Positions 21,705 to 60,665 of a stretch of DNA of 64,000 nt are shown here, one piece after another. The notes beneath the pieces are model-generated. The model saw only the letters and a program-made list of their open reading frames with translations. It searched no databases and was not told the DNA's origin. Position 1 is the first letter of the stretch; each line of letters begins with the position of its first letter. Made by a program: the position numbers and the translations under genes. Origin of the DNA: Wenyingzhuangia sp. 2_MG-2023 (GTDB taxonomy: Bacteria > Bacteroidota > Bacteroidia > Flavobacteriales > Flavobacteriaceae); NCBI RefSeq assembly GCF_030548295.1, contig NZ_JAUOSB010000001.1, positions 558,001-622,000 of the forward strand, in the 5' to 3' direction.

Positions 21705-22395
21705 ATAAATTATTTTTAAGCCGCTAAATTACAAAATGGTATACTTGTGTATGCATTTGAACACAATTTATTTAATTGACTTGCTTTCAAGGATTCATAT
21801 TATTGTATATTTAATTTTAGTACTATTTTTTTACGTTTTTAACATCTTAACTAGTTATTAACATTAAAAATGATAACTTTAATAGAATTGGTTTAAAATC
21901 AATGGTTTATAAAAACGGTAGTTTTGTTAATAACATGTTATAAAAAAGAGCAAACTAAATTTTGATTTTCATCTTTAAAAAACAATACAGCGAACGACCA
22001 ATACAAGCCAAATTTATTTACTATAAAGTTACCACAGGTTGTTAACAATTTATTCACACTTTATCAAGATTATCAAACTGTAATTTTATAAGCTAATTGT
22101 AAAAAAAACAGTTATTAACAACTGTGGATAACTATACATAATCCCTTTAATTACAAATATTTATTACTTTAAAAACTTGTTGATAAAGTAAACTTAGTGT
22201 TAAGTAAAAATATTTTAATGTTAATTTACTGTGTAAGTAAACAGCTAATAATACTCCATAATTTGTTTTATAAATTTTAAAAAAGAAAAAATTAAATATT
22301 ATATAGTTGTTGAAAAGGTTTACATAAAATTTATTTAGATCAACTTTCCTTATACGTATTTGCTGTACCTTTATCGGAGATAATAAATAAAAAAT
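21705..22395. other. Candidate chromosomal replication origin (oriC)
   Basis: 690 bp without a gene, flanked by divergent ndh and rnr, and unusually AT-rich. It has a perfect DnaA box on the minus strand (TGTGGATAA at 22123-22131). One-mismatch boxes are TTATTCACA (22050-22058) and TGTTGATAA (22178-22186). TTATTAACA-like sites occur at 21855, 21925 and 22112. The stretch 22200-22330 is almost pure A/T and could unwind. Gene strand bias shifts here (15 of 19 genes leftward before it) and three parS-like sites lie 7-10 kb to the right. dnaA itself is not in the window, which is common for Bacteroidota. The call rests on motifs only; no skew was computed. Confidence 0.55.
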
Positions 22396-28076: not shown

Positions 28077-29591
28077 TTAACTCAACGTTTGAATCGCATT
28101 TTCTATTCTTAAAATAGTATTTTCTTTTCCAATCATTTCTATGATATCAAATAGGTGAGGACCTTTCATTGCACCAACAATACTCAATCTTAATGGTGGC
28201 ATTACACTTCCAAATCCTAATTCTTTTTCAGTCAAATATTCTTTTACTTTTGTTTCTATTTTCATGCTATTAAATTCAGAAGTATTCTCTATTATATTTT
28301 TAACATCTTTTAGAATAGCAGGAGTATTTTCTTTCCATTGTTTTTTAGATGCTTTTTCATCGTAAGTTTCCGGGTTTTTAAAAAAGTAATCTGATAATTC
28401 CCACAAATCTTTTGTAAATACAGCTCTTTCTTTTACCAATCCAATAACTTTAACAATGTATTCTTTGCTAAATGTATTTAATTTTTCGGCATACAACTCT
28501 GTAAATAATAAAGCAATTTCTTCGTTGCTTTTCGTTTGCATATATTGTTGATTGAACCAGTTTGTTTTTTCTGGGCTAAATTTTGCTCCAGACTTAGAAA
28601 CACGTTCAATGGTAAATTCTTTAGCTAACTCTTCTAAAGAAAATATTTCTTGTTCTGTACCAGGATTCCATCCTAATAAAGAAAGCATATTTATAAAAGC
28701 ATCATTAAAATACCCATCCTCTCTATAACCTCTAGAGATTTCACCAGTCTGTTCATTTGTATAACTCAATGGGAATACTGGAAATCCTAATTTATCCCCG
28801 TCACGTTTACTCAATTTCCCTTTACCAACTGGTTTTAGAATAAGAGGTAAATGTGCAAATTTGGGTGAAATCCATCCAAATGCCTCGTACAATAAACTAT
28901 GCAGTGGGAGTGAAGGTAACCATTCTTCTCCACGAATCACATGACTAATTTCCATCAAATGATCGTCTACTATGTTTGCCAAATGGTAGGTTGGCATTCC
29001 ATCAGATTTGAATAAAATTTTATCATCCAAAGTATTTGTATCAATCACAATTTCACCACGAATCATATCGTCTAAAATTAATTTTTGATCTTTAGGTGTT
29101 TTAAATCTTATTACATATTTTTCATTAGCTGCTATTTTTTTAGCAATTTCTTCTTTAGATAAATTGATAGAATTGTTCAATGTTTCACGTGAAACATTAT
29201 TATATACAAATACAGTTTTGTTTGCTTCTGCTTGTTTTCTTAATTCATCTAATTCTTCTGAACTATCAAATGCATAATAGGCTTGGTTACTTGCCACCAA
29301 AGCATCTGCATATTTTTTATAAATTTCTTTTCTTTCAGACTGACGATAAGGACCAAACTTTTCATTTTTTCCAGGACCTTCTTCAAAAGGAATTCCACAC
29401 CATTCTAAGGCTTCAGTAATGTATTTTTCTGCATTGGCAACATATCTAGTTTGATCTGTATCTTCTATTCTTAATACAAAAGTTCCATTGTGTTTTTTTG
29501 CAAATAAGTAATTGAACAATGCGGTTCTTACTCCTCCAATATGCAAAGGTCCTGTTGGACTAGGTGCAAATCTTACACGTACATTTTCCAT
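28077..29591 (-). CDS. gltX: Glutamyl-tRNA synthetase
   Basis: 504 aa. The class I signature is PSPTGPLHIGGVRTALFNYL (HIGH-type motif near residue 16), and the KMSKS-type loop is KLSKRDG (about 258). It charges tRNA-Glu in the cytoplasm. The length and the C-terminal anticodon-binding region (to LGFGSVMPPLRLSIVGAMKGP) match bacterial GltX. An intact parS-like palindrome is embedded in the coding sequence at 29181-29196. A terminator follows the stop, so it is a single-gene unit. Confidence 0.95.
   Translation of the reverse strand: MENVRVRFAPSPTGPLHIGGVRTALFNYLFAKKHNGTFVLRIEDTDQTRYVANAEKYITEALEWCGIPFEEGPGKNEKFGPYRQSERKEIYKKYADALVASNQAYYAFDSSEELDELRKQAEANKTVFVYNNVSRETLNNSINLSKEEIAKKIAANEKYVIRFKTPKDQKLILDDMIRGEIVIDTNTLDDKILFKSDGMPTYHLANIVDDHLMEISHVIRGEEWLPSLPLHSLLYEAFGWISPKFAHLPLILKPVGKGKLSKRDGDKLGFPVFPLSYTNEQTGEISRGYREDGYFNDAFINMLSLLGWNPGTEQEIFSLEELAKEFTIERVSKSGAKFSPEKTNWFNQQYMQTKSNEEIALLFTELYAEKLNTFSKEYIVKVIGLVKERAVFTKDLWELSDYFFKNPETYDEKASKKQWKENTPAILKDVKNIIENTSEFNSMKIETKVKEYLTEKELGFGSVMPPLRLSIVGAMKGPHLFDIIEMIGKENTILRIENAIQTLS
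29181..29196. other. parS-like centromere site 1 (inside gltX)
   Basis: TGTTTCACGTGAAACA equals the classical ParB binding site consensus TGTTNCACGTGAAACA without a mismatch. The palindrome extends to 20 bp with AA and TT on the flanks (29179-29198). It lies in gltX codons, as parS sites often lie in genes. Confidence 0.8.
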
Positions 29592-29629
29592 GATTGTGTT
29601 TTTAAAATTAGTGTTGTTTTATTCGATTG

Positions 29630-29637
29630 CAAATATA
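29630..29637 (-). promoter_or_regulatory. -7 box for gltX
   Basis: On the minus strand TATATTTG fits TAnnTTTG, 38 bp before the gltX ATG. No -33 box was recognised. Confidence 0.45.
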
Positions 29638-29704
29638 CTTTATCCGTTAATTTTTAAGCATATATACTTTATTTTATTGTGTTTCTAGGTACAATCCTTT
29701 TTAG

Positions 29705-29712
29705 TACCTTTG
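29705..29712 (+). promoter_or_regulatory. -7 box for ybeY
   Basis: TACCTTTG fits TAnnTTTG, 18 bp before the ATG at 29731. Confidence 0.55.
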
Positions 29713-29730
29713 CAAAACTAAATTTGTTAT

Positions 29731-30144
29731 ATGATTGTTTTTAATTACGAAGCTGATTTTGAATTGGTTAACGAAGATATGTATAGTGATTGGATTTCAC
29801 AATCTATCATAAAAGAAGGCTTTCAAGAAGGTGATATCAATTATATTTTTTGTGATGATGAGTATCTACATAAATTGAATGTAGAATTTTTAGATCATGA
29901 TACTTTAACCGATGTGATTAGTTTTGATTATACCATGGGAAAATTGATTTCTGGTGATATTTTTATTTCTATTGAAAGAGTTAGAGACAATGCTATTGAT
30001 TTGAATATTTCTTTTGAAGATGAATTGCCGAGAGTCATTATTCATGGAGTTCTACACTATTGTGGTTTTAAAGATAAATCTGATGACGATGCAAAAATGA
30101 TGAGGTCTAAAGAGGAGGAGTATTTATCTATCTTAACAAATTAA
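29731..30144 (+). CDS. ybeY: rRNA maturation endoribonuclease YbeY
   Basis: 137 aa. The family core VISFDYTMGKLISGDIFISIERV is followed by the metal motif HGVLHYCGFKDK. The usual pattern is H-x3-H-x5-H; here His105 and His109 are kept but the third position is Asp115. Asp can also bind zinc, and a similar loop occurs, as far as I recall, in other Bacteroidota YbeY. It processes 16S rRNA ends and takes part in ribosome quality control. It is followed by a parS-like site and then mnmG in the same direction. Confidence 0.85.
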   Translation: MIVFNYEADFELVNEDMYSDWISQSIIKEGFQEGDINYIFCDDEYLHKLNVEFLDHDTLTDVISFDYTMGKLISGDIFISIERVRDNAIDLNISFEDELPRVIIHGVLHYCGFKDKSDDDAKMMRSKEEEYLSILTN

Positions 30145-30152
30145 TTTTATAC

Positions 30153-30168
30153 AGTTCCACGTGGAACA
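30153..30168. other. parS-like site 2 (between ybeY and mnmG)
   Basis: AGTTCCACGTGGAACA. The inner 14 bp (30154-30167) are a perfect palindrome matching the GTTCCACGTGGAAC form of parS known from Pseudomonas. Confidence 0.72.
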
Positions 30169-30210
30169 TTAACTAATATTGCTCTGTCAATATTTTAATT
30201 TAAATGATTT

Positions 30211-32088
30211 ATGAGTTTATTTACGGATACTTATGATGTGATAGTTGTTGGTGCAGGTCATGCTGGTTCTGAAGCTGCTGCTGCTGCTGCTAACATGGGT
30301 TCAAAAACTTTATTGGTAACAATGAGTTTGCAAAATATTGCTCAAATGAGTTGTAATCCTGCTATGGGTGGAATTGCAAAAGGTCAAATTGTAAGAGAGA
30401 TAGATGCCTTAGGTGGTTATAGTGGTATTGTTACCGATAATACAGCTATACAGTTTAAGATGTTAAACAAATCTAAAGGACCTGCTATGTGGAGTCCAAG
30501 AGCTCAATCTGATAGAATGCGTTTTGCTGAGGAGTGGAGAAACATGTTAGAGCAAACTGATAATTTGGATTTTTATCAAGATATGATCAAGGGTTTGATA
30601 ATTGAAGATGGAGAAATTAAAGGAGTTAAAACGGGATTGGGTTTTGAGATAAAAGCAAAATCTGTAATTATTACTGCTGGTACTTTTTTAAATGGTCTGA
30701 TTCATATTGGAGAAAAATCATTTGGAGGGGGGAGATCTGGTGAAAGTGCTTCTACAGGAATTACAGAAGATTTAGTGAAAGTTGGTTTTGAAGCAGGGAG
30801 AATGAAAACAGGAACACCACCAAGAGTGGATGCTCGTTCTTTAGATTTTTCTAAAATGATTGAACAGCCAGGTGATGAAAATCCTGAAAAGTTTTCTTAT
30901 CTACCAACTACTAAAAAGTTAACGGAACAACGTTCTTGTTATATGAGTTATACTTCTCAAGAAGTTCATGATTTGTTAAGAACAGGTTTTGATCGTTCTC
31001 CTATGTTTAATGGTAGAATTCAATCTACAGGACCAAGATATTGTCCTTCTATAGAAGATAAAATTGATCGTTTTGCTACGAAAGATAGACATCAAATTTT
31101 TGTAGAACCAGAAGGGTGGAAGACTGTAGAGATTTATGTAAATGGTTTTTCTACTTCTTTACCAGAAGATGTTCAAGACAAAGCTTTGCGTAAAGTAGCT
31201 GGTTTTGAAAACGTAAAATTCTTACGCTATGGATATGCTATTGAATATGATTTTTTCCCACCAACACAATTAACTCATTCTTTAGAAACTAAATTGGTTA
31301 AGAATTTGTTTTTTGCTGGACAGATTAATGGAACCACAGGTTATGAAGAAGCGGGTGCTCAAGGTTTGATGGCTGGAATAAATGCTGCTTTAAAAGTTCA
31401 ACAAAGACCTCCTTTTATTTTAAAAAGAGATGAAGCTTATATTGGAGTTTTAATTGATGATTTAATTACAAAAGGAACAGAAGAGCCTTACAGAATGTTT
31501 ACTTCTAGAGCTGAATATAGAACTTTACTTCGTCAAGATAATGCAGATATTAGATTAACACCATTATCTAATGCTATTGGTTTAGCTTCTGATGAGCGTT
31601 TAGAAACAGTAAAAGAAAAGATTAAAAATTCTGATTTATTAGTTCAGTTTTTACATGAAACTAGTATAAAACCGAAAGACATCAATCCAATTTTAGAAGC
31701 TAAAGGATCTGCTGTTATCAATCAATCTGTAAAGATGTTTAAGGTTGCTTCACGTCCTCAAATTGATTTTAAAGATGTGATTACTTTTCCTGGAGTTGCA
31801 GATTTTGTAGCTGAAAATAATATAGATGCTGATGCTATTGAGCAGGCAGAAGTAAAGGTTAAATATGCTGGTTATATTGAAAAAGAAAAGAACAATGCAG
31901 ATAAGTTACAACGTTTAGAAAATATATCCATTCCTAAAACGTTTGATTATTACAAAGTAAAATCTTTGTCTATAGAAGCACAACAAAAATTGACTAAGAT
32001 ACAACCTGTAACCATTTCCCAAGCGAGTAGAATTAGTGGAGTATCTCCATCAGATGTATCTGTTTTGTTGGTTTATATGGGACGTTAA
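30211..32088 (+). CDS. mnmG: tRNA uridine 5-carboxymethylaminomethyl modification enzyme MnmG (GidA)
   Basis: 625 aa. An FAD-binding Rossmann motif opens the protein (VIVVGAGHAGSEAAAAAANMG). The GidA signatures are SCNPAMGGIAKGQIVREIDALGG and, further on, GQINGTTGYEEAGAQG (about 370). The C-terminal helical domain binds MnmE and tRNA. With MnmE it adds the cmnm5 group to wobble uridine 34. Full length. mnmG is a frequent neighbour of chromosomal origins, which fits the DnaA-box spacer 8 kb to the left. parS-like sites lie on both sides of it. Confidence 0.96.
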   Translation: MSLFTDTYDVIVVGAGHAGSEAAAAAANMGSKTLLVTMSLQNIAQMSCNPAMGGIAKGQIVREIDALGGYSGIVTDNTAIQFKMLNKSKGPAMWSPRAQSDRMRFAEEWRNMLEQTDNLDFYQDMIKGLIIEDGEIKGVKTGLGFEIKAKSVIITAGTFLNGLIHIGEKSFGGGRSGESASTGITEDLVKVGFEAGRMKTGTPPRVDARSLDFSKMIEQPGDENPEKFSYLPTTKKLTEQRSCYMSYTSQEVHDLLRTGFDRSPMFNGRIQSTGPRYCPSIEDKIDRFATKDRHQIFVEPEGWKTVEIYVNGFSTSLPEDVQDKALRKVAGFENVKFLRYGYAIEYDFFPPTQLTHSLETKLVKNLFFAGQINGTTGYEEAGAQGLMAGINAALKVQQRPPFILKRDEAYIGVLIDDLITKGTEEPYRMFTSRAEYRTLLRQDNADIRLTPLSNAIGLASDERLETVKEKIKNSDLLVQFLHETSIKPKDINPILEAKGSAVINQSVKMFKVASRPQIDFKDVITFPGVADFVAENNIDADAIEQAEVKVKYAGYIEKEKNNADKLQRLENISIPKTFDYYKVKSLSIEAQQKLTKIQPVTISQASRISGVSPSDVSVLLVYMGR

Positions 32089-32093
32089 TTGAT

Positions 32094-32109
32094 AGTTCCA
32101 CGTGGAACA
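32094..32109. other. parS-like site 3 (after mnmG)
   Basis: AGTTCCACGTGGAACA, identical over all 16 bp to the site at 30153-30168, 6 bp after the mnmG stop and before its terminator. Confidence 0.72.
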
Positions 32110-32123
32110 GTTTTAAAATAGTT

Positions 32124-32154
32124 AACCGATACTTTGTGAAAAGTATCGGTTTTT
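32124..32154 (+). terminator. Terminator of mnmG
   Basis: 11 bp stem AACCGATACTT / AAGTATCGGTT with a 6-base loop and trailing T-run. Confidence 0.87.
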
Positions 32155-32208
32155 ATTTGGAATTAAGTCAAATTTTAAATCTGTTTTTGAGATGAAAAGA
32201 AGGAAAAA

Positions 32209-32667
32209 ATGATCTATTTTTCTTTTCTATTGGTTGTAATTCTTCCTTATTATTTTGTGAAATCAAGCTATATCAAAAGTTTTTAATTATGTGAGTTTAA
32301 TAAAGTAGACAAGATTGCAAAAAAATATGTGTTGTTAATTGGTAATTATAATACTCAAGAATATAATTATCCAATAAATTTTAAAAGTGAGTTGATAAAG
32401 AGGAATTCTAGCAGCTATAAAATATTTATATTTTTGCTGGTTTTAGAAATTCCAAAAGATAATTCCTTAACTATTATTTCACAAGAGCTCTATGATAAAA
32501 GTGCTGTGTACCTTGCTTAGTTAAATTGGATAAAAACAAAAGTATTTAATGCAAAAGACATAAGTAGAAAATATGGTTTTAAAGTATATTTGTGTAAGCA
32601 TTTAGTAAGAACAAAAATGTGTTTGTATTTTCTATCTAATGCAAAATTTAAATTTCAGGTAAAATAA
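32209..32667 (+). pseudogene. Decayed gene for a small protein with an N-terminal membrane segment
   Basis: From ATG 32209 (preceded by GAAGGAAAAA) to TAA 32665 one frame of 153 codons is interrupted only by TAA at 32284-32286 and TAG at 32518-32520. It reads as MIYFSFLLVVILPYYFVK (a membrane segment), then KIAKKYVLLIGNYNTQEYNY, a middle part with ELIKRNSSSYKIFIFLLVLE, and after the second stop LNWIKTKVFNAKDISRKYGF. In DNA this AT-rich so few stops over 153 codons is unusual, so I read it as a recently inactivated gene. The family is not recognised. The methyltransferase gene starts 9 bp after its end. Confidence 0.5.
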
Positions 32668-34218: not shown

Positions 34219-36489
34219 TTAAAAACGAATGTTAGTGCTAATATTTGGTGTAAATTTTAAGGATCTATTGTCAATTTGAATCACACCATTATTGTCGTCT
34301 AAAGTATAATATCTTTGAATGATATTTTGTTTATTGGTCAAATTTAAAATTCCAATATTAAAACTTCCAGTAATACGATTGTTCATTTTAAATTTGTATT
34401 TCAAAGAAGTGTCAATTCTAAAAAAATCTTCTAAATTTTCTTTGTTAGGAAGATCGTAATTGATAGCTTCAATTCCATTGATTTTGATTACAGGATTGTC
34501 TTTTATAGGTTTTGTGTATACATTTCCTTTTTTCCAATTTAGACCTACGGACAATTCAATATTTTTAAGCAATGTATAGTTAAAACCTAGTGATGAAGAT
34601 TGATTTACATTTAAATTGTTTGGAAAAACTTTCGGATCAAATTTGCTAAAAAAGTAATTGTTATTGCTAATAGTGTAACTAATCCAAGTACTGTATTTTT
34701 TACCCGTTTTATTGATTAGAAATTCGGTACCATAAGTGTTGTAATTCCCGTGTGCTTGCTCAAATTTAAAACTATTGTAAAATCCTTGACTAGCTGCGGT
34801 TACTCCTGTTACACGCTTATAAAAACTAGTGATTTCCACATACATATTTTTGAAGCTATAATCTATACCGTAAGAAATTTGTTTGCTTTTTACGATAGGT
34901 GTAAATTTATTATCTGATAAAATCCATCGTCTATTTTCAACACCTAAAAAATGATCTTTAAAATCTACTTTTTGATTGACAGTTTGATGTTTGAATTCTC
35001 CTAACAATTTAAACTTTAGATTATCGGTTATTTTTTGTTTTAAAACAAATCTTGGTTCAAAAATTAATTTGTCAAATTTTTGTAAATAATTGATTCTAAG
35101 TCCTGATTTTAAAAAAGTGTTTTTATTTTTATAGACCATCTCAGAGAATACAGCTTGTGTTTTTAATACTTCTTTTATATTTCGTTCTATAGTAGGTTTG
35201 TTGATTAGAGTCCTATTTAAGACACCTGTTTCTATAAATTCTGCACCCAATAAAAGATTGTAATTTGTTTTGAATTTGAGGTGATGCTGTATTTTTATAT
35301 TGTTTTCTGTGACTAAATTTTTCTGAAAATTAGTTTGATTCAAATTGTATTTTTTATCAAAAGATTCAATATTATATTGAGTATGATAAGCTAAAATTTC
35401 TGTTAAATTGTTAGAATTCCACTGTGTTTTCCAATCTAGCCCAATAGCTTTTTTTTCCTGATTTAAATTGCTCTTTTTCTCATCTGTAGATAGTTCATGA
35501 TAGTTTAAACTATTGACTATGTTTATATAATTTACACGTAGCTTGTTTTTAGAATTGACATCGTAAAGTAGTTTTGCACTATAATCATAAAAGGAAAATT
35601 TAGATTTTGTATCTATTATTTCATCTTTCTTAATTTTAATTTCACTATCCTGAAAACTTTTGTAGAAATAATTATCATAAGTAATGGTTTCAAAAAAATT
35701 TGTCAGAGATTTTCTACCAGAAACTTGTAATTCTAATTTTTGATTGATTGGGATCTTTAAAAACATACCAGCATTGATCAAATCTACATTGATATTTCCC
35801 GAAAAATTATGAGTCAATTCATCTTTGTTAGACATAAAAATGGTGCTAGAAATACCATTTCCATAAGCACTGCTAGTTCCGTTTTTAGTAACGGTAACTT
35901 TATCTATAAAATTTGAATTGTAAGCAGAAATGAGTCCAAAAAAATGACTGGAATGATACATTTTCATACCCTCCCAAAGAATCAGATTTTGATCGTTAGT
36001 TCCACCTCTAACATTTAGGTAGTTAATACTTTCATTTTCACTTTCTATACCTGGTAATATTTGTATGGATTGCATGATGTCTGGACTAGACAAACCCGGT
36101 AAAATACCAAATTTTTTAGTATTCAAAACAATGCTTCCATCAGTCTTTTTTTGCAATCCTTTTGTTAAGTATTTGGTTAAAGTAACAGTGTTTAAAACCT
36201 CTATAAATTTGTTTTTTTTGGTAATGGTAATGTAGCGCTTGTTTATTCTTTTAAAACGCAATAGACTGTTATTGTTTATGAATAAAATAATTTCATCTAA
36301 ATTAGTTGTTTGTGTTGGTTGAGAGATGGTTACTTTTTCTAAATCTGATGGAGAAAAAGCAAATTTAACATCAAATTTTTTCTCAAGCACAGGAATATAA
36401 TCAATCAAAAAAAGTGATGATTTTTTTGATTGAGAATACACCCAAATATTGGTTGATAACCAAAGAAAAATCCAAAATAGATGTTTCAT
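34219..36489 (-). CDS. TonB-dependent receptor with STN signalling domain (set 1)
   Basis: 756 aa. Signal peptide to about residue 19. An STN domain follows (residues 24-92, VLEKKFDVKFAFSPSDLEKV and its continuation), which in FecA-type receptors contacts the FecR anti-sigma factor. The plug has GSIVLNTKKFGILPGLSSPD, then NVRGGTNDQNLILWEGMKMY, and the remainder is a 22-strand-type barrel. The carboxypeptidase-like domain present in its paralogue at 41396 is missing here. ATG overlaps the fecR stop (TAATG). The ligand is unknown. Confidence 0.85.
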   Translation of the reverse strand: MKHLFWIFLWLSTNIWVYSQSKKSSLFLIDYIPVLEKKFDVKFAFSPSDLEKVTISQPTQTTNLDEIILFINNNSLLRFKRINKRYITITKKNKFIEVLNTVTLTKYLTKGLQKKTDGSIVLNTKKFGILPGLSSPDIMQSIQILPGIESENESINYLNVRGGTNDQNLILWEGMKMYHSSHFFGLISAYNSNFIDKVTVTKNGTSSAYGNGISSTIFMSNKDELTHNFSGNINVDLINAGMFLKIPINQKLELQVSGRKSLTNFFETITYDNYFYKSFQDSEIKIKKDEIIDTKSKFSFYDYSAKLLYDVNSKNKLRVNYINIVNSLNYHELSTDEKKSNLNQEKKAIGLDWKTQWNSNNLTEILAYHTQYNIESFDKKYNLNQTNFQKNLVTENNIKIQHHLKFKTNYNLLLGAEFIETGVLNRTLINKPTIERNIKEVLKTQAVFSEMVYKNKNTFLKSGLRINYLQKFDKLIFEPRFVLKQKITDNLKFKLLGEFKHQTVNQKVDFKDHFLGVENRRWILSDNKFTPIVKSKQISYGIDYSFKNMYVEITSFYKRVTGVTAASQGFYNSFKFEQAHGNYNTYGTEFLINKTGKKYSTWISYTISNNNYFFSKFDPKVFPNNLNVNQSSSLGFNYTLLKNIELSVGLNWKKGNVYTKPIKDNPVIKINGIEAINYDLPNKENLEDFFRIDTSLKYKFKMNNRITGSFNIGILNLTNKQNIIQRYYTLDDNNGVIQIDNRSLKFTPNISTNIRF

Positions 36490-37385
36490 TATTTCGAAAT
36501 AATTACTTCATTTTGATTAATAGTGTAGGTTAATTTTAACGGAATTGTAAGAGTTTTTAATGCTATTTCTAAATTTGTGTGCGTAAATGTACCCGTAAAA
36601 AGAGTTTTGTTGTCTACGTTTTTTAGAACAATATTGATATCATACTGTTTTTCCAATTCCTCTATTACTTTAAATAAAGGAGTCTGATTAAAAGAAGATT
36701 CCTTAAGAATCCAACTAGGTTTTTTATTAGGGGTAGTTAAATGTTGAATTTTATTTTCGGTAAGAATTTGAATTATTTTACCTGGAAGTAGAATTTTTTC
36801 ATGATTTTGATAAGTTACTTTTACAGAACCTTCATAACAATCAACTTGAAAAAAACCGGTACGATCTTGTACATTAAACTGTGTTCCTAAAACTTGAACT
36901 GTTCCACTTTGAGTATGCACAGTAAATTTTTTTCCTTTGGCTACTTTAAAATAAGCTTCTCCAGTTAAATTTATATTTCTATGTTCGTTCCAATTATTTT
37001 CAGCATACGAAATAGTAGAGTTACCATTTAAAACAACTTCAGAATTGTCTGGCAAAACAAGGATTTTAGTTTCTGCTATGCTAGTTGTAATGGTGGTAGA
37101 ATTGTTTTGCGTTACAAAATAGTAAGTAGGGTAGATAAGTAACAATATAGCTGCAGCTACTTTAAATACTACAGAAAAGTTTACAACCTTTCCTTTTTTG
37201 TGCTTTTTTAGTTGTTGAAAATTCTGAAAAGCTTCTTCAGAATTTTCTTTAGGAACATTGATATGTGTGGTATAATGAGATAATTTTTTCAATGCTTCCA
37301 ATTCCTTAAAACCTATTTTTGATTCTAATTCCTCAGAAGTCAACTCATCATTCATCCATTGGTGTATGTATTTTTCATTTTCCAT
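36489..37385 (-). CDS. FecR family anti-sigma factor (set 1)
   Basis: 298 aa. The N-terminal 80 residues are cytoplasmic, one membrane helix lies at about 75-92 (FKVAAAILLLIYPTYYFV). The periplasmic FecR domain has the typical VLPDNSEVVLNGNSTISYAENNW, GEAYFKVAKGKKFTVHTQSGTVQVLGTQFNV and DVKV-like tail. A DUF4974-like C-terminal domain (PLFKVIEELEKQYDINIVLKNVD) follows. It transmits the signal from the receptor STN domain and controls the sigma factor encoded upstream (11 bp gap). Confidence 0.9.
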   Translation of the reverse strand: MENEKYIHQWMNDELTSEELESKIGFKELEALKKLSHYTTHINVPKENSEEAFQNFQQLKKHKKGKVVNFSVVFKVAAAILLLIYPTYYFVTQNNSTTITTSIAETKILVLPDNSEVVLNGNSTISYAENNWNEHRNINLTGEAYFKVAKGKKFTVHTQSGTVQVLGTQFNVQDRTGFFQVDCYEGSVKVTYQNHEKILLPGKIIQILTENKIQHLTTPNKKPSWILKESSFNQTPLFKVIEELEKQYDINIVLKNVDNKTLFTGTFTHTNLEIALKTLTIPLKLTYTINQNEVIISK

Positions 37386-37396
37386 TTTAAGATGTT

Positions 37397-37912
37397 TTAT
37401 TTGCTGAATTTTGTTTTAAGCTGTAAATTTTTAAGAGCTTCAGACATATGTTTTTCTACTGTTTTTTGGGAGATATTTAGCAATTCAGCTATTTCTCTAT
37501 ACTTTTTATTTTCTATTCTGTTCAATAAAAAAATCTGTCTTTGTTGCGCAGGTAAAGCAGCAATTTTAGTCAGCAATTGTTGTTTGTATTCTTCTTCTAA
37601 ATAAAGATATTCTGGGGAGTGATTGTCTTTATCGTAATTAGGAGTTTCTTTTTGATAAGCAAATACAACATTTTGATGCTTTACTTTGTTTAAAAAAAGA
37701 TGATTGATAGTTGTAAACAAATAACTTTTGGCTTTTAGATAGTTGATAGAAGCGCAATTTTCCCAAATTTTAGCAAAGGAATCTTGTAAAAGATCTAAAG
37801 AATCACTAGAACTTCCACATTTGTAAAAAGCAAAATTATTTGCAGCTTTAAAGTTTTGTTTGTAAAATTTTTCAAACAAAATTTCATCACATAGATTAGG
37901 ACTTTTACTCAT
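37397..37912 (-). CDS. ECF RNA polymerase sigma-70 factor (set 1)
   Basis: 171 aa from ATG 37912 (MSKSPNLCDEILFEKFYKQ); 11 extra in-frame codons upstream lie in a hairpin. Region 2 (SSDSLDLLQDSFAKIWENCASINYLKAKSYLFTTINHLFLN) and region 4 (LPAQQRQIFLLNRIENKKYREIAELLNISQKTVEKHMSEALKNL) are separated by a short linker, as in the Bacteroidota-type ECF sigma factors that work with FecR. It probably activates its own receptor operon on ligand binding. It is about 50 percent similar by eye to the sigma factor at 39906. Confidence 0.9.
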   Translation of the reverse strand: MSKSPNLCDEILFEKFYKQNFKAANNFAFYKCGSSSDSLDLLQDSFAKIWENCASINYLKAKSYLFTTINHLFLNKVKHQNVVFAYQKETPNYDKDNHSPEYLYLEEEYKQQLLTKIAALPAQQRQIFLLNRIENKKYREIAELLNISQKTVEKHMSEALKNLQLKTKFSK

Positions 37913-37931
37913 ATATATTTTTTTAAAACCG

Positions 37932-37962
37932 ATGAGTAATTCCATGAAAAGGAACTACTCAT
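37932..37962 (-). terminator. Hairpin between the repeat lipoprotein and sigma factor genes
   Basis: Imperfect 12 bp inverted repeat ATGAGTAATTCC / GGAACTACTCAT around a 7-base loop, on the minus strand followed by a T-rich stretch. It could end the lipoprotein transcript or weaken read-through into the sigma operon. Confidence 0.5.
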
Positions 37963-39760: not shown

Positions 39761-39905
39761 TATTTTTTTATGTGCGATAGACGTTAATAAAACATCTAAT
39801 TTTTAAAATACCCTACCATATTTTTTGACTTTTTTAAGAATAGATTTTAATTTAAAACATAATATAACTAAGAATCATTTATTTTTGAGATTACAAACAA
39901 TAGAT

Positions 39906-40421
39906 ATGTCAAAAGAAACTTCGGTTTGCGAGGCCAAAACATATGAATCCATTTATAAACAATACAGTAGGTCTTTGTATAGATTTATGTATTTTAAATG
40001 TGGCGATCAAGATAGGGCAGAAGATTTGGTGCAAGAGGCTTTTATAAAACTCTGGAATAACTGTGCAAAAGTAATTTTTAGCAAAGCAAAATCTTATTTG
40101 TACACCATAGCTAACAATCAATTTTTAAATGAAGTGGCTCACAACAAAGTAAAACTTAATTATCAGCAAAGTTCAGCAAAAGATAGAAACAACAATGAAT
40201 CTCCAGATTTTATTTTAGAAGAACAGGAGTTTATGATTAAGCTTGAAAAAGCAATAGAAGAATTAACTCCGGGAGAAAGAGAGGTTTTTTTATTGAACAG
40301 AATAGAAGATAAAAAGTACAGAGAAATAGCAGAAATGCTAAATATTTCTGTAAAGGCAGTCGAAAAAAGAATGCACGGAGCTTTGCTAAAATTAAGAAAT
40401 AGCATTGGAAAAAAAATATAA
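39906..40421 (+). CDS. ECF RNA polymerase sigma-70 factor (set 2)
   Basis: 171 aa from ATG 39906 (MSKETSVCEAKTYESIYKQY), the same start type and exact length as its paralogue at 37397-37912. A longer frame to 39825 is AT-rich and unlike the family. Region 2 is DQDRAEDLVQEAFIKLWNNCAKVIFSKAKSYLYTIANN and region 4 is LTPGEREVFLLNRIEDKKYREIAEMLNISVKAVEKRM. The FecR gene follows after 63 bp. It probably drives the receptor operon it belongs to. Confidence 0.9.
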   Translation: MSKETSVCEAKTYESIYKQYSRSLYRFMYFKCGDQDRAEDLVQEAFIKLWNNCAKVIFSKAKSYLYTIANNQFLNEVAHNKVKLNYQQSSAKDRNNNESPDFILEEQEFMIKLEKAIEELTPGEREVFLLNRIEDKKYREIAEMLNISVKAVEKRMHGALLKLRNSIGKKI

Positions 40422-40484
40422 GGTTAAAACAAATTAGAGTAGGGTTTTTAGGCTTACAAATGTTATAGTTACAAATAGAAAATA

Positions 40485-41393
40485 ATGAAACAAAATCATA
40501 TAAATAACGATACTTTTTTAGCAAGGTGGTTGAGCAATGATTTGTCTGATAATGAGTTAAAAGAATTTAAAGAGTCTCCAGATTATTCTCTGTATTTAAA
40601 AATTGCTGAGAAAAGTAAAGAGTTTAAAGTACCCGTTTTCAATCAAGAAAAAGTATACCAACAAATACAGTTGGCTATTCAAAAGGAAAAAAATAAAGTT
40701 AAAAAATTAATTTCTACTTGGGTATATGGTGCTGCAGCTGCAATTTTGTTATTGATAGGTGTTTCTTTCTTTTTCAATCAAAATAATACAATACAAGTAG
40801 CAAAAGGGCAAAAATTAGCGTATATTTTACCAGATGGATCTACGGTAAATTTAAATGGCCAATCGTCTATTAGTTTCAATGAAAAAAAATGGAAAGAAGG
40901 AGAAAGAGAATTGGAATTAGAAGGAGAGGGGTATTTTAAAGTAAAAAAAGGTTCTGCTTTTTCTGTACATACAGAAGAAGGATCTGTAACAGTTTTGGGA
41001 ACACAGTTTAATGTACAAACCATAAAAAATTATTTGTCGGTTGAGTGTTATGAAGGAAAGGTATATGTTGCTAACGGATTTTTGGATACAGTTTTAACTC
41101 CAGGAAAAGGAGTAAATTTTAAAGATAAAACCAAAAAAAATTACAACATTCATTGGTCTCAACCAGATTGGGTTAGAAATACATATCAATACAACGGTAC
41201 TCCTTTAAGCATTGTTTTTAAAGATTTGGAAAATGTTTACGGAATAACTGTAAAAAATAAAAATGTAGATATAACTCAAAAATATTCAGGGAAACTTTTG
41301 AATGATGATTTAACCAAAGCGGTAGAAATTATTGGTAAGTCAATGGATATCAACTATAAAATTAAAGAGAACACAGTAACGATTGATCAATAA
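40485..41393 (+). CDS. FecR family anti-sigma factor (set 2)
   Basis: 302 aa. One membrane helix at about 84-100 (VYGAAAAILLLIGVSFFF). The periplasmic FecR domain has ILPDGSTVNLNGQSSISFNEKKW, GEGYFKVKKGSAFSVHTEEG and TVLGTQFNVQ, and a DUF4974-like end has PLSIVFKDLENVYGITVKNKN. The domain order equals that of set 1. It should hold the set 2 sigma factor until the receptor STN domain signals. The receptor gene starts 2 bp after its stop. Confidence 0.9.
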   Translation: MKQNHINNDTFLARWLSNDLSDNELKEFKESPDYSLYLKIAEKSKEFKVPVFNQEKVYQQIQLAIQKEKNKVKKLISTWVYGAAAAILLLIGVSFFFNQNNTIQVAKGQKLAYILPDGSTVNLNGQSSISFNEKKWKEGERELELEGEGYFKVKKGSAFSVHTEEGSVTVLGTQFNVQTIKNYLSVECYEGKVYVANGFLDTVLTPGKGVNFKDKTKKNYNIHWSQPDWVRNTYQYNGTPLSIVFKDLENVYGITVKNKNVDITQKYSGKLLNDDLTKAVEIIGKSMDINYKIKENTVTIDQ

Positions 41394-41395
41394 TT

Positions 41396-43969
41396 ATGAA
41401 GAGATTTTTAGGTTTTCTTTTTTTGCTATCATTTTCTATATTTTGCCAAGAAAAACAAACGCTAAAAGAGGTTTTAAATCAATTATCTCAAAATAATAAC
41501 ATCACTTTTTCTTACAACGAAAATCAAGTTCAACAGTTTTCAGCGATCACTGTTTTTAAGCATAAAAATTTAGAAACTATTTTGCTAAACTTAGCAGAAC
41601 AAACACAATTGGTTTTTGAAAAAATTGATGATAAAAATTATATTGTTAGAAGAAAAAAAGCCCATAAAATTAATGTTTGTGGAAGAGTTTTAGACGCTAA
41701 AACTAAAAAAGGTCTTTCTTTTATTGCTTTGTTTTTTAATGGAAAAAGTACCATAACAAATGAACAAGGGTACTTTGAAATTGAAAATATTTTGGAGGAT
41801 GAAATCATCTCAATTAAAGAATTAGAGTATAAAAAAATGACCATTCCTGTTGCTTATTTTAGCAATGATTGTTTAAAAATTTTCTTAGAAGAAAACATTC
41901 AGCAACTTTCAGAAATTGTAATTACAGATTATTTAGCAAGAGGATTGGATCAAAAAAAAGACGGAAGTATTGTTTTAAATCCTAAAAAAATAGGAATTCT
42001 TCCTGGAGTTATAGAACCCGATGTATTGCAAACTTTGCAATTGATTCCTGGAGTTCATAGTCCAGATGAAACAGCTTCGGGTATTCATGTAAGAGGTAGT
42101 ACTCCTGACCAGAACTTGGTGCTTTTTGATGGGATGAAAATGTATCATTTTTCCCATTTTTTTGGATTGATATCTGCGTTCAACCCTTACATAACTAACG
42201 ATGTTAAATTGTACAGATCTGGCACACATGCAAAATATGGTAACAATGTAGGTGGTGTTTTAGATATCAATACGCAAAACAACATTCCTGATAGTTTTTC
42301 TTTTGGTTTAGGTAGTACGTTAACACATTCTGATTTTTATGTAAAAACACCCATGTTTAAAGACAAAGTTGGATTGATTTTTTCTGCACGAAGATCTATT
42401 ACAGATGTTTTTAATACAATTACATATAAAAAATTTGCCAAAGTTGCTTTTCAGAATAGCAGAATATCTGAAGCTTTAGAAGATGAAAAATTAAGATTGG
42501 AAAATATAGACAATGATTTTTTCTATGAAGATTATCATTCTAAAATAATAGTAAAACCTAATTCTAAAAACAAATTAACGTTTAGTTATTTGTACAATCT
42601 GAACAATTTAAAATTTAGTGGAGAAATTCCTGGAGCAGAGGAATCTTTTGAAGATAAAATAAATATAGAAAACAAAGGATTTCACTGGAGCTGGAAATAT
42701 GGATCATTACAAAAAGGTACTTCTCAAATAGCTTTTAGTAGTACCAATTTCAACAAAGAATATGATGGTTTTAGAGAGTTTTCATCCGTTGATGGAACCT
42801 TAGAAAACACTTACTTCATAAAAAATAATTACATCAAAGAAAACGATGTTGAGTATGTTTTTGAAAAACAAACAAAGAATAATAACAAATGGCAATTGGG
42901 ATCTCAATACAACAATTACAATGTTTATTATTTATTTGGGAGAGATGTAGCACAAGACACTAATCAAATAAATGATATAATTAGTGATAAAACTTATAAT
43001 TATGCTTTTTTTACGGAGTATGAGTTCAATATAAAAAACAAATGGCTTGTTAATTTAGGGATGAGATGGCAATATTTTAACAATTTAGATAAAAGTTTTT
43101 TTGAACCAAGGTTGAATGTAAATTACAAAAAAAATAAAGCAATAAGTTTTAAGTTTTCGTCGGAGTTAAAACACCAATCTATAGCGCAAGTAGTAGATTT
43201 TAGATCAGATGGTCTTGGTGGTTTATTTGATAGATTTTGGGCTTTGTCTGACAATCAAAGTATTCCTGTTTTGAATAGTTTTCAGACCAGTTTTGGTTCT
43301 AGTTATCAAAAAAATGGATGGACTTTAGATGCAGAATTGTACTATAAATTTACGGATGGCATTTTGTATTTAATGGATGAAAACATTCGCGTTAGTAAAT
43401 ACTTCAACGGTAGTAATACCGTAAAAGGTATAGATCTTTTAATCAAAAAACAGTGGAAAGATTACAGTAGTTGGATTAGTTATACGTTGTCAGATAGTAG
43501 TTATCTTTTTGACAATTTGAATGAAGGTGAAAAATTTAAAGGTTCTTACGATGCTCCTCACAATCTTATTTGGTCGCATAACTATACAATGAATAAGTTA
43601 GAATTTTCTATGGGATGGAGATTCCATTCAGGAATTCCATACACGCTCAAAACGGCTGTTTTAGACAAAAAGAATAATTTAAGAATTGATTTTGAGGAGT
43701 TGAATAGCAAAAGATTACCAGATTACCATAGAATTGATTTTTCGATGTTCTACATGTTTAAATTTAATAGTAAAAGCAAAGTAAAAGGTAAAATAGGGTT
43801 GACTTTACAAAATTTGGTGAACAGGAAAAATATTTTAAATAGAGATTACGACATCGAAACAATTATAGAAGAAGAAGGTCCTAACAGAGTGGAAAGGCAA
43901 GTCTTGATTCAAAAAGATAGAATTTCTTTAGGCTTTGTTCCTAATCTGATTTTTAGAGTCGCTTTTTAA
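41396..43969 (+). CDS. TonB-dependent receptor with STN and carboxypeptidase-like domains (set 2)
   Basis: 857 aa. Signal peptide (MKRFLGFLFLLSFSIFCQ), STN domain (about 22-88), carboxypeptidase-D regulatory-like domain (about 94-165, INVCGRVLDAKTKKGLSF), then the plug (VITDYLARGLDQKKDGSIV, IHVRGSTPDQNLVLFDGMKMYHFSHFFGL) and the barrel. The last strand ends in VPNLIFRVAF with a C-terminal Phe as in outer-membrane barrels. Its plug is strikingly like that of the set 1 receptor (shared GILPG, PDQNL, GMKMYH and HFFGLISA). The ligand is unknown; no siderophore or sugar enzyme genes are nearby. Confidence 0.88.
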   Translation: MKRFLGFLFLLSFSIFCQEKQTLKEVLNQLSQNNNITFSYNENQVQQFSAITVFKHKNLETILLNLAEQTQLVFEKIDDKNYIVRRKKAHKINVCGRVLDAKTKKGLSFIALFFNGKSTITNEQGYFEIENILEDEIISIKELEYKKMTIPVAYFSNDCLKIFLEENIQQLSEIVITDYLARGLDQKKDGSIVLNPKKIGILPGVIEPDVLQTLQLIPGVHSPDETASGIHVRGSTPDQNLVLFDGMKMYHFSHFFGLISAFNPYITNDVKLYRSGTHAKYGNNVGGVLDINTQNNIPDSFSFGLGSTLTHSDFYVKTPMFKDKVGLIFSARRSITDVFNTITYKKFAKVAFQNSRISEALEDEKLRLENIDNDFFYEDYHSKIIVKPNSKNKLTFSYLYNLNNLKFSGEIPGAEESFEDKINIENKGFHWSWKYGSLQKGTSQIAFSSTNFNKEYDGFREFSSVDGTLENTYFIKNNYIKENDVEYVFEKQTKNNNKWQLGSQYNNYNVYYLFGRDVAQDTNQINDIISDKTYNYAFFTEYEFNIKNKWLVNLGMRWQYFNNLDKSFFEPRLNVNYKKNKAISFKFSSELKHQSIAQVVDFRSDGLGGLFDRFWALSDNQSIPVLNSFQTSFGSSYQKNGWTLDAELYYKFTDGILYLMDENIRVSKYFNGSNTVKGIDLLIKKQWKDYSSWISYTLSDSSYLFDNLNEGEKFKGSYDAPHNLIWSHNYTMNKLEFSMGWRFHSGIPYTLKTAVLDKKNNLRIDFEELNSKRLPDYHRIDFSMFYMFKFNSKSKVKGKIGLTLQNLVNRKNILNRDYDIETIIEEEGPNRVERQVLIQKDRISLGFVPNLIFRVAF

Positions 43970-53583: not shown

Positions 53584-53668
53584 ACCATAGTTTGTTGTAA
53601 AGTTAATAGCTTCTTTATGTTGGCGTAATATTATAAGTATAAAATTGCAAGTTACTAATAGAGTGACT

Positions 53669-56600
53669 ATGCGTTTTGCCCCTTTTTTGTTTTTTTACTT
53701 TTTTTTAGCATCTTTATTTGGTCAACACATTAAATTTGAGAGTTTTACTACCAACGAAGGTTTGTCTAACAATTCTGTTGTTGATATAGAAAACGATAAA
53801 GATGGTGGGCTTTGGATGGCTACTTGGGATGGATTGAATTATTTTGATGGTCATAAATTTGTAACGTACAAACACCATATCAATAATAAAAATTCTATTC
53901 CAGGCAATTATGTCTTAGATGTAGATAGAGATGCCAATGGAACTATTTGGATTTTTACGAACGAAGGAAAAGTAGCTCGGTATTTAGGGAATCAACAATT
54001 TCAGAATTTTCAGTTTGTCGGTAAACCAGCCAATCTAACTATTTCTAAAAAAGGAAATGCACTTGTTAGGGTTGGCAGTAATTATTATGAATTTGTAAAA
54101 GGTGCTTTTGTAAAGAGTGCAAACAATTCAATTCAGACAGAAAAATATCAGGTTTTTAGAGATATGTTGTTGGCAAAATATCCAAGTTTAATTATCAATG
54201 ATATTTTAAAAGACAAAACAGGAAATATTTGGATCGCCACTAGAAGAGATGGCTTATATATTATACCCAATAGTTCTAGAAATTTACAAAATGCGCAAAT
54301 AGACCATTATGTGTTTGATTTGTATTCCCCTTATAGTTTTAATAGCAATGAGATTGTAAGACTGCATACTGATGTTTTTGGAAATGTATGGTTGGGTCAA
54401 AAGGATGGAGGTGTTAGCATGGCTTATCAAGGATCAGAATTGATTTCTTCGGTAACACCACACCCTGTAATTTACCCTCATTTGCCAAGTGAAACTATCA
54501 GGGCTATTACCAAAGATTTTAGTGGACAAGTGTGGCTGGGATATTACACTCAAGGACTGTATTACTATGATTATCCTACCGGTTGTTACTTAAAATATAC
54601 ATTTAAAGAACAGACAGAAAACCCTGATTGGAACCGAATAAGAAGTTTGTTTACCTCTTCGGAAGGAAGTGTTTGGGTAGGAACTTATGCAGGATTGTTA
54701 AGAATAAACAAGGGAAAGTATCAATTGTATGAATCTAAGAAAATATCGAATTTTCCAAACGATAGAAATTATTCTGTTTACGAAGATGAACAAAACATAT
54801 TGTGGATTGCTTGTTGGGGAGGTTTGGCAAAATTCAATTTAACTACCAATACTTTTGAATCTTTTAAAGGACAGGAATTGCTCTCAACTTACAATTTTAG
54901 GAATGTAAAAAAAGTAGACAATGAGTTGATTTTGGCTACAGAAACTAAAGGAGTTGTGTTGTTAAATATTGTTTCTGGTAAAAAAGAAACCATCACCGTG
55001 ACAGATGGAATTTTAGGAAACAGTGTGTATTCTGTGTTTAAAGATACGGAAACTAACAATTATTGGATTGCCTCTTTAGGTGGATTAAGTGTATATAATA
55101 AAAAGGTTGGAGTTGTAAAAAACTTAACGGAACAAGAAGGGTTGCCAAGTCATATGGTTTATGGTTTGTTGCAAAATGACGATCAGGTGTGGCTAAGTAC
55201 AACCAAAGGATTGGTTTTTGTAGACAAAAAAAGTTATAAAATAACGGTTATAAATCCTGAAGAGGGTTGGCAAGCACCCGAATTTTCTGAAGGAGCATAT
55301 TATCAAGATGCCAAAGGAATTTTGTTTTTTGGAGGGGTAAATGGGTTGAATTATTTTCTTCCAAGTCAGATAAACATTCAAAAAACAGAACCTAAAATAA
55401 AAATAGAAATAGAAGGTAATGAAAAGTATAGCAAACACATTGTAAAAAAACATATGGACAATCGTTTGGAAGTTAACATTGTTCCGATTGTTTTTCCGGT
55501 GGGTAGAATAGAGGAGTTTTCTGTTTTTTACAAACTAGAAGGTTATGATAAAGATTGGGTTCTATTAGATCCTAATAATTCAAATGTTATTTACGATGAT
55601 ATTCCGTCCGGAAATTATCAGTTCTATATAAAAAACAAAGATGGAGAGGTAAATGAACTTGGTTATTTTTCATTGTACATTAGAAAAGCGTTTTACCAAA
55701 CTGTTTTGTTTTATGTGATTTTGTTATTGTTGTTGGTCATAGCGTTGTTTGTAATTATTTATATCAAAAATAAAAACACACTGCTGCAAAAGAAAAAGTT
55801 AGAAGATCAGATTGCAGAACGTACCAAGGTGATTCATAATCAGAAAGAAGATTTGCTTTTAGTCAATCAAAAATTAGATGATAAGAACAAAGAAATCATC
55901 ATTCAAAAAGAAAAATTACTAGAACTTCATAACAACTTAAAAAATGAAGATTTTGAAATTGAAAAGTTTAAAACCTTTGTTTTGTCAGAGTTTCAAGATC
56001 CTATTTCTAAAATCATTCAAACATCTTACAAAGTAGATGATGAAACACTTCAAAAAAAATTAGTTTCTCAGTCTGCAAAATTAATCAATTTAGTTTCTGA
56101 GTGGAATTATTTAGATCACATTAAAGACATCAAAAATCAAAAGAAAAGCTCGGTAAACATATATCCGATTGTTAAAAAAAGCATCGAAAAAGTAAAACAA
56201 GCATTGCAAAACAATCAAGTAAACTTCAATGCAAGTATTGATAAAAACTTAGGATGGGTTGAGATAGACTTGCTAAGATTTAGACTGTTGTTGCAATATT
56301 TTTTTAACGATATTATTAAATATTCTGATGAAAAAAGCTCCGTAAAAATAACAATTAGTCACGATCAAGAAGTTTTAAACATCAAATTAGGATCTAACAG
56401 TACGGTGCTTAAAAACAGTTGGGATAGCATTGTACATTTTAGTCCCTATTACAAAGCGGTAAAGGTGATGCTTAAAGATTTAGAGGGAAGTTTGATGGTT
56501 GTGCAGAACAATGATGTTGAATTGCAATTAAGCATTCCAATGATTTTGGTAGATACAGAAACCAAGCCGATAGAAACCATTGCTTGGAAGCATTTAAACT

Positions 56601-56761
56601 TAGAAGAAAAACTAGATGCTAGCAAACAAACCATTTTGGTCTTTAGTGATGATGAAAATTTAGGAGCTGCCAATCAAATTTTAGAAAACGAACAATACAA
56701 TTTATTATTTGAGACTTCTGTTTCTGATTTAAGTTCTGCTTTGCAACAAATTAGTATTTAG
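53669..56761 (+). CDS. Hybrid two-component regulator, N-terminal part (degenerate kinase), ends at an in-frame TAG
   Basis: 1030 aa from ATG 53669 (MRFAPFLFFYFFLASLFGQ signal peptide; the longer TTG frame is unlikely). Two-component propeller repeats fill about 30-590 (IENDKDGGLWMATWDGLNYF, LLKDKTGNIWIATRRDGLYI type). A Y_Y_Y domain follows (about 605-675), then a membrane helix (about 690-710) and a coiled coil. The HisKA segment reads FKTFVLSEFQDPISK: the phospho-acceptor His of S-H-E-F is Ser. The HATPase part keeps an N-box-like FFNDIIKYS but not the DxGxG box. A receiver begins at about 985 (ILVFSDDENL) and is cut by TAG 56759-56761. The second half continues in the same frame. It is the likely regulator of the susCD genes downstream. 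Confidence 0.75.
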   Translation: MRFAPFLFFYFFLASLFGQHIKFESFTTNEGLSNNSVVDIENDKDGGLWMATWDGLNYFDGHKFVTYKHHINNKNSIPGNYVLDVDRDANGTIWIFTNEGKVARYLGNQQFQNFQFVGKPANLTISKKGNALVRVGSNYYEFVKGAFVKSANNSIQTEKYQVFRDMLLAKYPSLIINDILKDKTGNIWIATRRDGLYIIPNSSRNLQNAQIDHYVFDLYSPYSFNSNEIVRLHTDVFGNVWLGQKDGGVSMAYQGSELISSVTPHPVIYPHLPSETIRAITKDFSGQVWLGYYTQGLYYYDYPTGCYLKYTFKEQTENPDWNRIRSLFTSSEGSVWVGTYAGLLRINKGKYQLYESKKISNFPNDRNYSVYEDEQNILWIACWGGLAKFNLTTNTFESFKGQELLSTYNFRNVKKVDNELILATETKGVVLLNIVSGKKETITVTDGILGNSVYSVFKDTETNNYWIASLGGLSVYNKKVGVVKNLTEQEGLPSHMVYGLLQNDDQVWLSTTKGLVFVDKKSYKITVINPEEGWQAPEFSEGAYYQDAKGILFFGGVNGLNYFLPSQINIQKTEPKIKIEIEGNEKYSKHIVKKHMDNRLEVNIVPIVFPVGRIEEFSVFYKLEGYDKDWVLLDPNNSNVIYDDIPSGNYQFYIKNKDGEVNELGYFSLYIRKAFYQTVLFYVILLLLLVIALFVIIYIKNKNTLLQKKKLEDQIAERTKVIHNQKEDLLLVNQKLDDKNKEIIIQKEKLLELHNNLKNEDFEIEKFKTFVLSEFQDPISKIIQTSYKVDDETLQKKLVSQSAKLINLVSEWNYLDHIKDIKNQKKSSVNIYPIVKKSIEKVKQALQNNQVNFNASIDKNLGWVEIDLLRFRLLLQYFFNDIIKYSDEKSSVKITISHDQEVLNIKLGSNSTVLKNSWDSIVHFSPYYKAVKVMLKDLEGSLMVVQNNDVELQLSIPMILVDTETKPIETIAWKHLNLEEKLDASKQTILVFSDDENLGAANQILENEQYNLLFETSVSDLSSALQQISI

Positions 56762-56797
56762 GCTATTGTTTTTTACCAAGCATCTTTTAGCAAAGAG

Positions 56798-57388
56798 TTG
56801 GTTTATTTTTTAAATCAATACAAACAAGAAATCAACAATAGTTTTAGAATACCTATCATATACATTTCTGAAGAAATTAACTATACGTTACAAGAGCAGT
56901 CTGTAGAGTTGGGTATTGATGTGGTGATTCAATTACCCGCAAGTGAGAGTTTTATCATGAAAAAATTGACATCGGTAATGCAGCCTAAAGACAAGGTGGT
57001 AGAAAATAAGTTTCAACAAGAAATTTTTCAAATTTTAACAGAAGATCAAGAAGTAGAAACGGCTAATGACAAACTCTTAAAAAAAGGACTGAAGATTATT
57101 AAAAAAGAATTGTCCAATCCGGAGTTTAATGTAGAAATGTTGATAGAGCTTTTAGAGGTTTCTAGAGTAAAATGTTACCGATTGTTTAAAGAAGTATTGA
57201 ATCAATCGCCATCGGATGTTATTACCTCACTTAGGTTCCAAAAAGCAACTTATTTGTTAAAGAATAAAAACTTAAATATATCCGAAGTAGGTTTTGAATG
57301 TGGTTTTAACGATCCTAAATACTTTAGCAAGTCGTTTAAAAAACATTTTGGGGTAACTCCTAAGGCTTACAAAAAAGAAAATGAGTAG
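56798..57388 (+). pseudogene. C-terminal receiver and AraC-type HTH part of the same regulator
   Basis: In frame with the 53669 gene and separated from it by one TAG and 12 codons. Open from 56762; possible own starts are TTG 56798 and ATG 56957. Residues to about 75 complete the receiver (IPIIYISEE, VIQLPA). The phospho-acceptor Asp of the receiver falls in the IVFYQASF segment just after the TAG, where it reads Gln. The conserved Lys is Leu. Residues about 105-196 are an intact AraC-type HTH (VEMLIELLEVSRVKCYRLFKEVLNQSP, ISEVGFECGFNDPKYFSKSFKKHFGVTPKAY). Either a broken gene with a still usable DNA-binding part or a two-part protein. The DNA-binding domain shows no decay. Confidence 0.6.
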
Positions 57389-60642: not shown

Positions 60643-60665
60643 TTTATTAAAACTTAGAATATACA

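Follow-up and report, generated by a model that had tools for sequence, protein, structure and literature searches.

A predicted chromosomal parS cluster near the likely replication origin of Wenyingzhuangia, with sites on both sides of mnmG and one inside gltX

Three palindromes in a flavobacterial genome very probably form a chromosomal parS cluster, at which ParB would be loaded 7–10 kb from oriC. The DNA analysed here (hereafter the window) is a stretch of 64,000 nucleotides from a bacterium of the same GTDB genus as Wenyingzhuangia gilva, in the family Flavobacteriaceae. We favor this reading because the sites are unique in the genome, clustered, and conserved, because the single ParB of the genome carries parS-type residues and has a ParA-like neighbour, and because a likely origin is near. 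Chromosomal parS sites, as in Bacillus subtilis, Pseudomonas aeruginosa, and Caulobacter, are 16-bp palindromes centred on CACGTG that cluster near oriC in genomes encoding ParA and ParB. The present sites resemble them in being CACGTG-centred 16-bp palindromes near the predicted origin of a genome with ParA-like and ParB genes. Unlike in those three organisms, neither parB nor dnaA shares a contig with the sites here, and in the relatives checked both are far from parS; one pair of sites brackets mnmG, and one site lies in gltX. Such a cluster is a known kind of element, and the mnmG bracket and the gltX site are the parts that may be worth a specialist's test. The features of the locus, in window coordinates, are:

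21705–22395, no strand: candidate oriC gap, 691 bp, 21% GC, with DnaA-box-like sites at 22050 (+), 22123 (−, exact), and 22178 (−)
Neighbours of the candidate oriC gap: on the minus strand, an oxidoreductase-like gene (named by eye); on the plus strand, rnr (TIGR02063)
28077–29591, minus strand: gltX, glutamate–tRNA ligase (NCBIfam TIGR00464, 497 bits; PDB 6b1z/6brl), with site 1 in its coding sequence
29181–29196, no strand: predicted parS site 1, TGTTTCACGTGAAACA, inside gltX at the codons of N-V-S-R-E-T
29731–30144, plus strand: ybeY, rRNA maturation RNase (TIGR00043)
30153–30168, no strand: predicted parS site 2, AGTTCCACGTGGAACA, between ybeY and mnmG
30211–32088, plus strand: mnmG (gidA; TIGR00136, 846 bits), bracketed by sites 2 and 3
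32094–32109, no strand: predicted parS site 3, AGTTCCACGTGGAACA, a few bases past the mnmG stop and ahead of its terminator
32124–32151, plus strand: terminator-like stem-loop after mnmG (stem-loop search and fold), separate from site 3

Other parts of the window were annotated by eye. A hybrid two-component-like regulator at 53645–57388 is split over two ORFs (53645–56761 and 56798–57388), possibly by a frameshift or as a true split, and stands upstream of a SusC/SusD-like pair (57571–62261). Two neighbouring sets of ECF sigma factor, FecR-like anti-sigma factor, and TonB receptor lie in opposite orientation at 34219–37945 and 39825–43969.

The window holds exactly three copies of the motif GTTYCACGTGRAAC, with 14-bp cores at 29182–29195, 30154–30167, and 32095–32108, and the corresponding 16-mers begin one base earlier (29181, 30153, and 32094). 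All three cores are exact with respect to the 16-bp palindrome TGTTYCACGTGRAACA, from which sites 2 and 3 deviate at the first base only. The window held no fourth match at two or fewer mismatches, and 100 dinucleotide shuffles of it gave a mean of 0.34 matches at this threshold, with a maximum of 2. Across the whole draft genome (3,976,284 bases in 253 contigs), the same three sites were the only matches at one or fewer mismatches; a control pattern, GTTYCACGTGRAAC read backwards, matched once under the same conditions. A first-order Markov estimate predicted 0.023 exact copies per genome, and the chance of three exact copies was about 1e-15 in one given 2.9-kb stretch and roughly 1e-12 anywhere in the genome. 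An earlier note on this DNA had called three such palindromes in about 3 kb far beyond chance, a claim borne out by three exact copies at this expectation, and the genome-wide count that it proposed placed 3 of 3 matches within 2.9 kb at this locus, not spread along the chromosome. The note had also set the sites around ybeY and mnmG: sites 2 and 3 do directly flank mnmG, but site 1 lies in the gltX coding region and is not intergenic. Its remark that the sites mix two sequence types carries little weight, and the idea was dropped, because relatives show every one of the four pairings of T-type and C-type half-sites at these same positions.

A cluster of DnaA boxes at 22050–22186 lies about 7.0, 8.0, and 9.9 kb from sites 1, 2, and 3, respectively. 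The three boxes in the 691-bp gap (one or fewer mismatches) were matched by 1 of 2,000 simulated gaps. DnaA boxes were not enriched over the whole window (20 observed versus 22 expected), so that, as far as DnaA boxes go, the case for an origin depends on the cluster. In an alignment with three other same-genus genomes, parts of the gap were conserved. When GC skew was sampled over about 55% of the contig, window included, 10 of 13 pieces to the left of the window were negative and all 7 to its right positive. In a closed genome of the same genus (G539), the skew has opposite signs in the 20-kb pieces that begin at 3,255,001 and 3,275,001, with parS at 3,265,651–3,268,583 and the aligned gap with DnaA boxes at about 3,276,100–3,276,500. 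The DnaA boxes and the change in skew place a likely origin 7–10 kb from the sites, at the distance that the earlier note had given.

The origin of G539 is near neither dnaA, at 1.87 Mb (C1:1870219–1870425), nor parB, at 0.47 Mb. Its dnaA is about 1.4 Mb from the origin (C1, about 3.27 Mb), in the terminus half and not far from the place, at 1.4–1.8 Mb, where the skew reverses again in the sampled pieces. In all seven other family genomes checked, parB and dnaA were at least 0.9 Mb from parS in record coordinates. No cluster of DnaA boxes, defined as three boxes at one or fewer mismatches with neighbours less than 150 bp apart, was found in the 38–40 kb around parS in each of 10 other family genomes, so the closeness of parS to oriC is supported for this genus only. 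Genome G254 gave a weak, noisy signal when its GC skew was sampled, and in G143 the agreement was no more than rough. In gut bacteria including Bacteroides, parS clusters have been located by Hi-C and GC skew with two mismatches allowed, and according to the available text of that study parS marks the origin, which is not always at dnaA (PMC10197239). The present sites share its consensus and, by the same available text, its origin-marking; the study covers gut species only, and mnmG or coding-sequence sites are absent from that text.

The genome contains one ParB-family gene, which exceeds the TIGR00180 cut-off and lies on contig 200, not on the parS contig. Directly upstream of it is a gene for a ParA-like ATPase, which reached no NCBIfam ParA cut-off. 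Absence of parA and parB, which the earlier note had named as a refutation, is thus not the case, and its interpretation of the palindromes as ParB loading sites gains from the unspread motif, from these two genes, and from the supported candidate origin. The protein matches ParB/Spo0J chains (7bnk, 6sdk, and 6t1f among 13). Counted from the GK-x-R motif, its residues equal Q162, G170, K171, R173, N178, G201, and R204 of Caulobacter ParB, so that the equivalents of R173, G201, Q162, N178, and R204 give the cognate ParB parS-type specificity residues; it has K for S172, Y at position 179, and K at position 184. The portion of PMC7383237 available gives R173 and G201 as parS-type choices and Q173, K179, K184, and R201 as Noc-type, and describes any residue as tolerated at position 184 in parS binders. 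Lysine 184 is as in Noc, and the top NCBIfam score of the protein was to the nucleoid-occlusion model TIGR04285 (238.8 bits, under its cut-off of 315). The NBS sites of Noc are likewise 16-bp palindromes bound by a ParB relative, with a sequence that differs at two positions. An assignment of the palindromes to Noc was rejected: the sites carry parS-type bases, the protein has R and G where Noc has Q173 and R201 (PMC7383237, same portion), and TIGR04285 was below cut-off. We read the single ParB-family protein as ParB, not Noc.

In all seven same-genus genomes (our own and six others), GTTTCACGTGAAAC stands at the same gltX codons and encodes the peptide NVSRET, which the palindrome spells on the opposite strand as well. 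Each of the seven has three exact sites, all at this locus; two of the six others (G228 and G538) have one extra one-mismatch match elsewhere. The second of these is W. gilva, a member of the genus and the closest named relative among the best 80 of 587 matches (MnmG 96%), whose gltX stretch is identical to that of G534. When the gltX genes of 59 of the 80 loci (best 80 of 587) were aligned, W. gilva read NVSRET, and the other 58 comprised 47 with WHNR and 11 with other peptides. A further 23 gltX genes from outside the genus, whose species may overlap with the 58, included 18 reading WHNR. Among these genes (58 and 23), none from outside the genus contained an exact parS, and a two-mismatch parS-like word was present at the same codons in one genome outside the genus (G030, locus L270).

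All 14 bases of site 1 are invariant among the seven same-genus gltX genes, which are 78–88% identical. Across these genes, 336 degenerate codons encode an unchanging residue, and 111 of them are codon-invariant; in site 1 this holds for the codons of V, S, R, and E alike, with a product of residue-specific rates of 0.004. Two more runs of invariant bases occur in the gene (14 and 18 bases long), one of them at the start codon, and by itself the nucleotide constraint in gltX appears moderate. When the enzyme is aligned with Thermus GluRS (1j09), the NVSRET stretch coincides with gaps, and two extra residues are present there in 7 of the 59 gltX genes, as would suit a tolerant loop. From the distribution of the site over genomes, an aminoacyl-tRNA synthetase gene appears to have acquired a centromere site, with some of the encoded residues replaced. 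The gain probably dates to the genus ancestor and fell in a part of the enzyme that varies in length, and the site is probably now fixed at the nucleotide level.

Sites on the two sides of mnmG extend well beyond the genus. The 16-mer was present at one or fewer mismatches in 292 of 299 sampled family genomes, with two apparently the commonest count per genome, and in all 30 family loci fetched from these 292 genomes it lay at mnmG or within about 0.5 kb. Among the best 80 of 587 mnmG loci, which include W. gilva, 76 had sites at one or fewer mismatches on both sides of mnmG, in the 500 bp ahead of the gene and the 200 bp past it, and 67 had exact sites on both sides. In two of the exceptions (L087 and L089) the downstream site is farther off, and the other two, L043 (Tenacibaculum finnmarkense) and L104 (Capnocytophaga), have no site on either side. 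Matches were found in 230 of 247 genomes of the phylum sample, and 14 of 21 same-class loci fetched from outside the order (L203–L223) were at mnmG, with 7 elsewhere. By this distribution, the link of predicted parS sites with mnmG is old but not universal. No 16-mer match at one or fewer mismatches was found in 7 of the 299 family and 17 of the 247 phylum genomes; ParB was present in 5 of 5 such genomes checked (G383, G123, G234, G386, and G509), so either the consensus is not universal or the assemblies lack the place. Within the genus, the 14-mer was the only long invariant block in the ybeY–mnmG gap of the seven genomes (nine rows, two genomes entered twice). Among the titles and abstract openings listed, we found nothing on mnmG-bracketing parS in Flavobacteriaceae or on parS inside gltX; most subscription journals lay outside this coverage, and we do not claim absence from print.

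Site number and sequence varied among loci of the family. Some Flavobacterium loci (L062, L055, and L053) carry parS arrays ahead of mnmG. In L055, seven exact copies lie within 500 bp. A 1.1-kb run in L062 from −1188 to −77 before mnmG includes five copies about 117 bp apart, with the centre CACATG or TACATG instead of CACGTG. Drifted or one-mismatch sites were seen in Polaribacter-like, Tenacibaculum, and Kordia loci (L038, L042, L044, L046, L047, L048, L050, L099, and L043). The Polaribacter-like loci have one-mismatch sites past mnmG with TCGTGG or ACGAGG centres, the Tenacibaculum loci drifted sites past mnmG (CACATG or CATGTG centres), and the Kordia loci drifted sites ahead of mnmG; T. 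finnmarkense (L043) has degraded-looking words only, on both sides of the gene. ParB preference or selection may differ in these three groups of loci.

Other explanations of the palindromes were weighed against the parS reading. They might be operators of a transcription factor regulating ybeY, mnmG, and gltX, as two of the three occupy gaps next to genes and site 2 is upstream of mnmG. However, one site is in the middle of gltX and another past the mnmG stop, the word fits the parS consensus in the available text of PMC10197239, a likely origin is near, and as many as seven exact copies within 500 bp before mnmG (L055) are common at centromeres but would be odd at a promoter; we consider operators very improbable. 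Even less probable is a role as RNA hairpins, that is, terminators or attenuators of the gltX, ybeY, or mnmG transcripts. Each palindrome could form a stem of 5–9 bp, and the stretch around site 3, which includes the separate terminator stem, folds far better than shuffles (z −4.43), but the stretches of sites 1 and 2 fold about like shuffles (z −0.60 and −0.87). The variant GTTCCACGTGAAAC, which accounts for 10 of the 106 exact sites ahead of mnmG and 20 of the 70 past it (80 loci, best of 587), puts C opposite A and so would break the RNA stem, which counts against hairpins. An intrinsic terminator (stem plus T-run) was rejected, since the sole plus-strand terminator-like site in 29500–32400 is that at 32124–32151, at no palindrome.

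A narrower alternative accepts sites 2 and 3 as parS and takes site 1 as a functionless by-product of the NVSRET protein sequence. Because NVSRET does not vary within the genus, some of the underlying DNA is dictated by it; the invariance of the V-S-R-E codons is alone modest evidence, and one genome outside the genus has a two-mismatch look-alike at the same codons. Nevertheless, we regard this as unlikely: among the genes compared, NVSRET occurs only in this genus and is exactly what parS needs in that frame, the 14 bases are unchanged in seven genomes despite the divergence of gltX, and site 1 lies 1 kb from two other parS sites when 0.02 exact copies are expected per genome.

Under the parS reading, established ParABS biology suggests that ParB dimers would load at each of the three sites, close with CTP into clamps, and slide over the gltX–ybeY–mnmG stretch to build a partition complex, which ParA would move to bring about early separation of sister origins. 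Loading of ParB at parS near the origin and movement of the complex by ParA are described in the available part of PMC7333895. Sites 2 and 3 would be the older pair around mnmG, kept by most family members, and site 1 a later gain inside gltX in the genus ancestor. We also considered, as a doubtful proposal, that the mnmG bracket is functional: clamps arriving from both sides would cover the gene, its expression would follow the state of the newly replicated origin, and the Wenyingzhuangia domain would have been enlarged through a parS in gltX that replaced an enzyme stretch well conserved in relatives. The bracket is kept across Flavobacteriaceae although dnaA and parB are elsewhere.

The predicted sites would be a handy centromere mark for the Flavobacteriaceae, a family in which dnaA is no guide to the origin, as its distance in G539 illustrates. 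The mnmG bracket poses a testable question, namely why the sites have stayed with mnmG, and the gltX site looks like a natural case of a DNA-binding site shaping the sequence of an enzyme.
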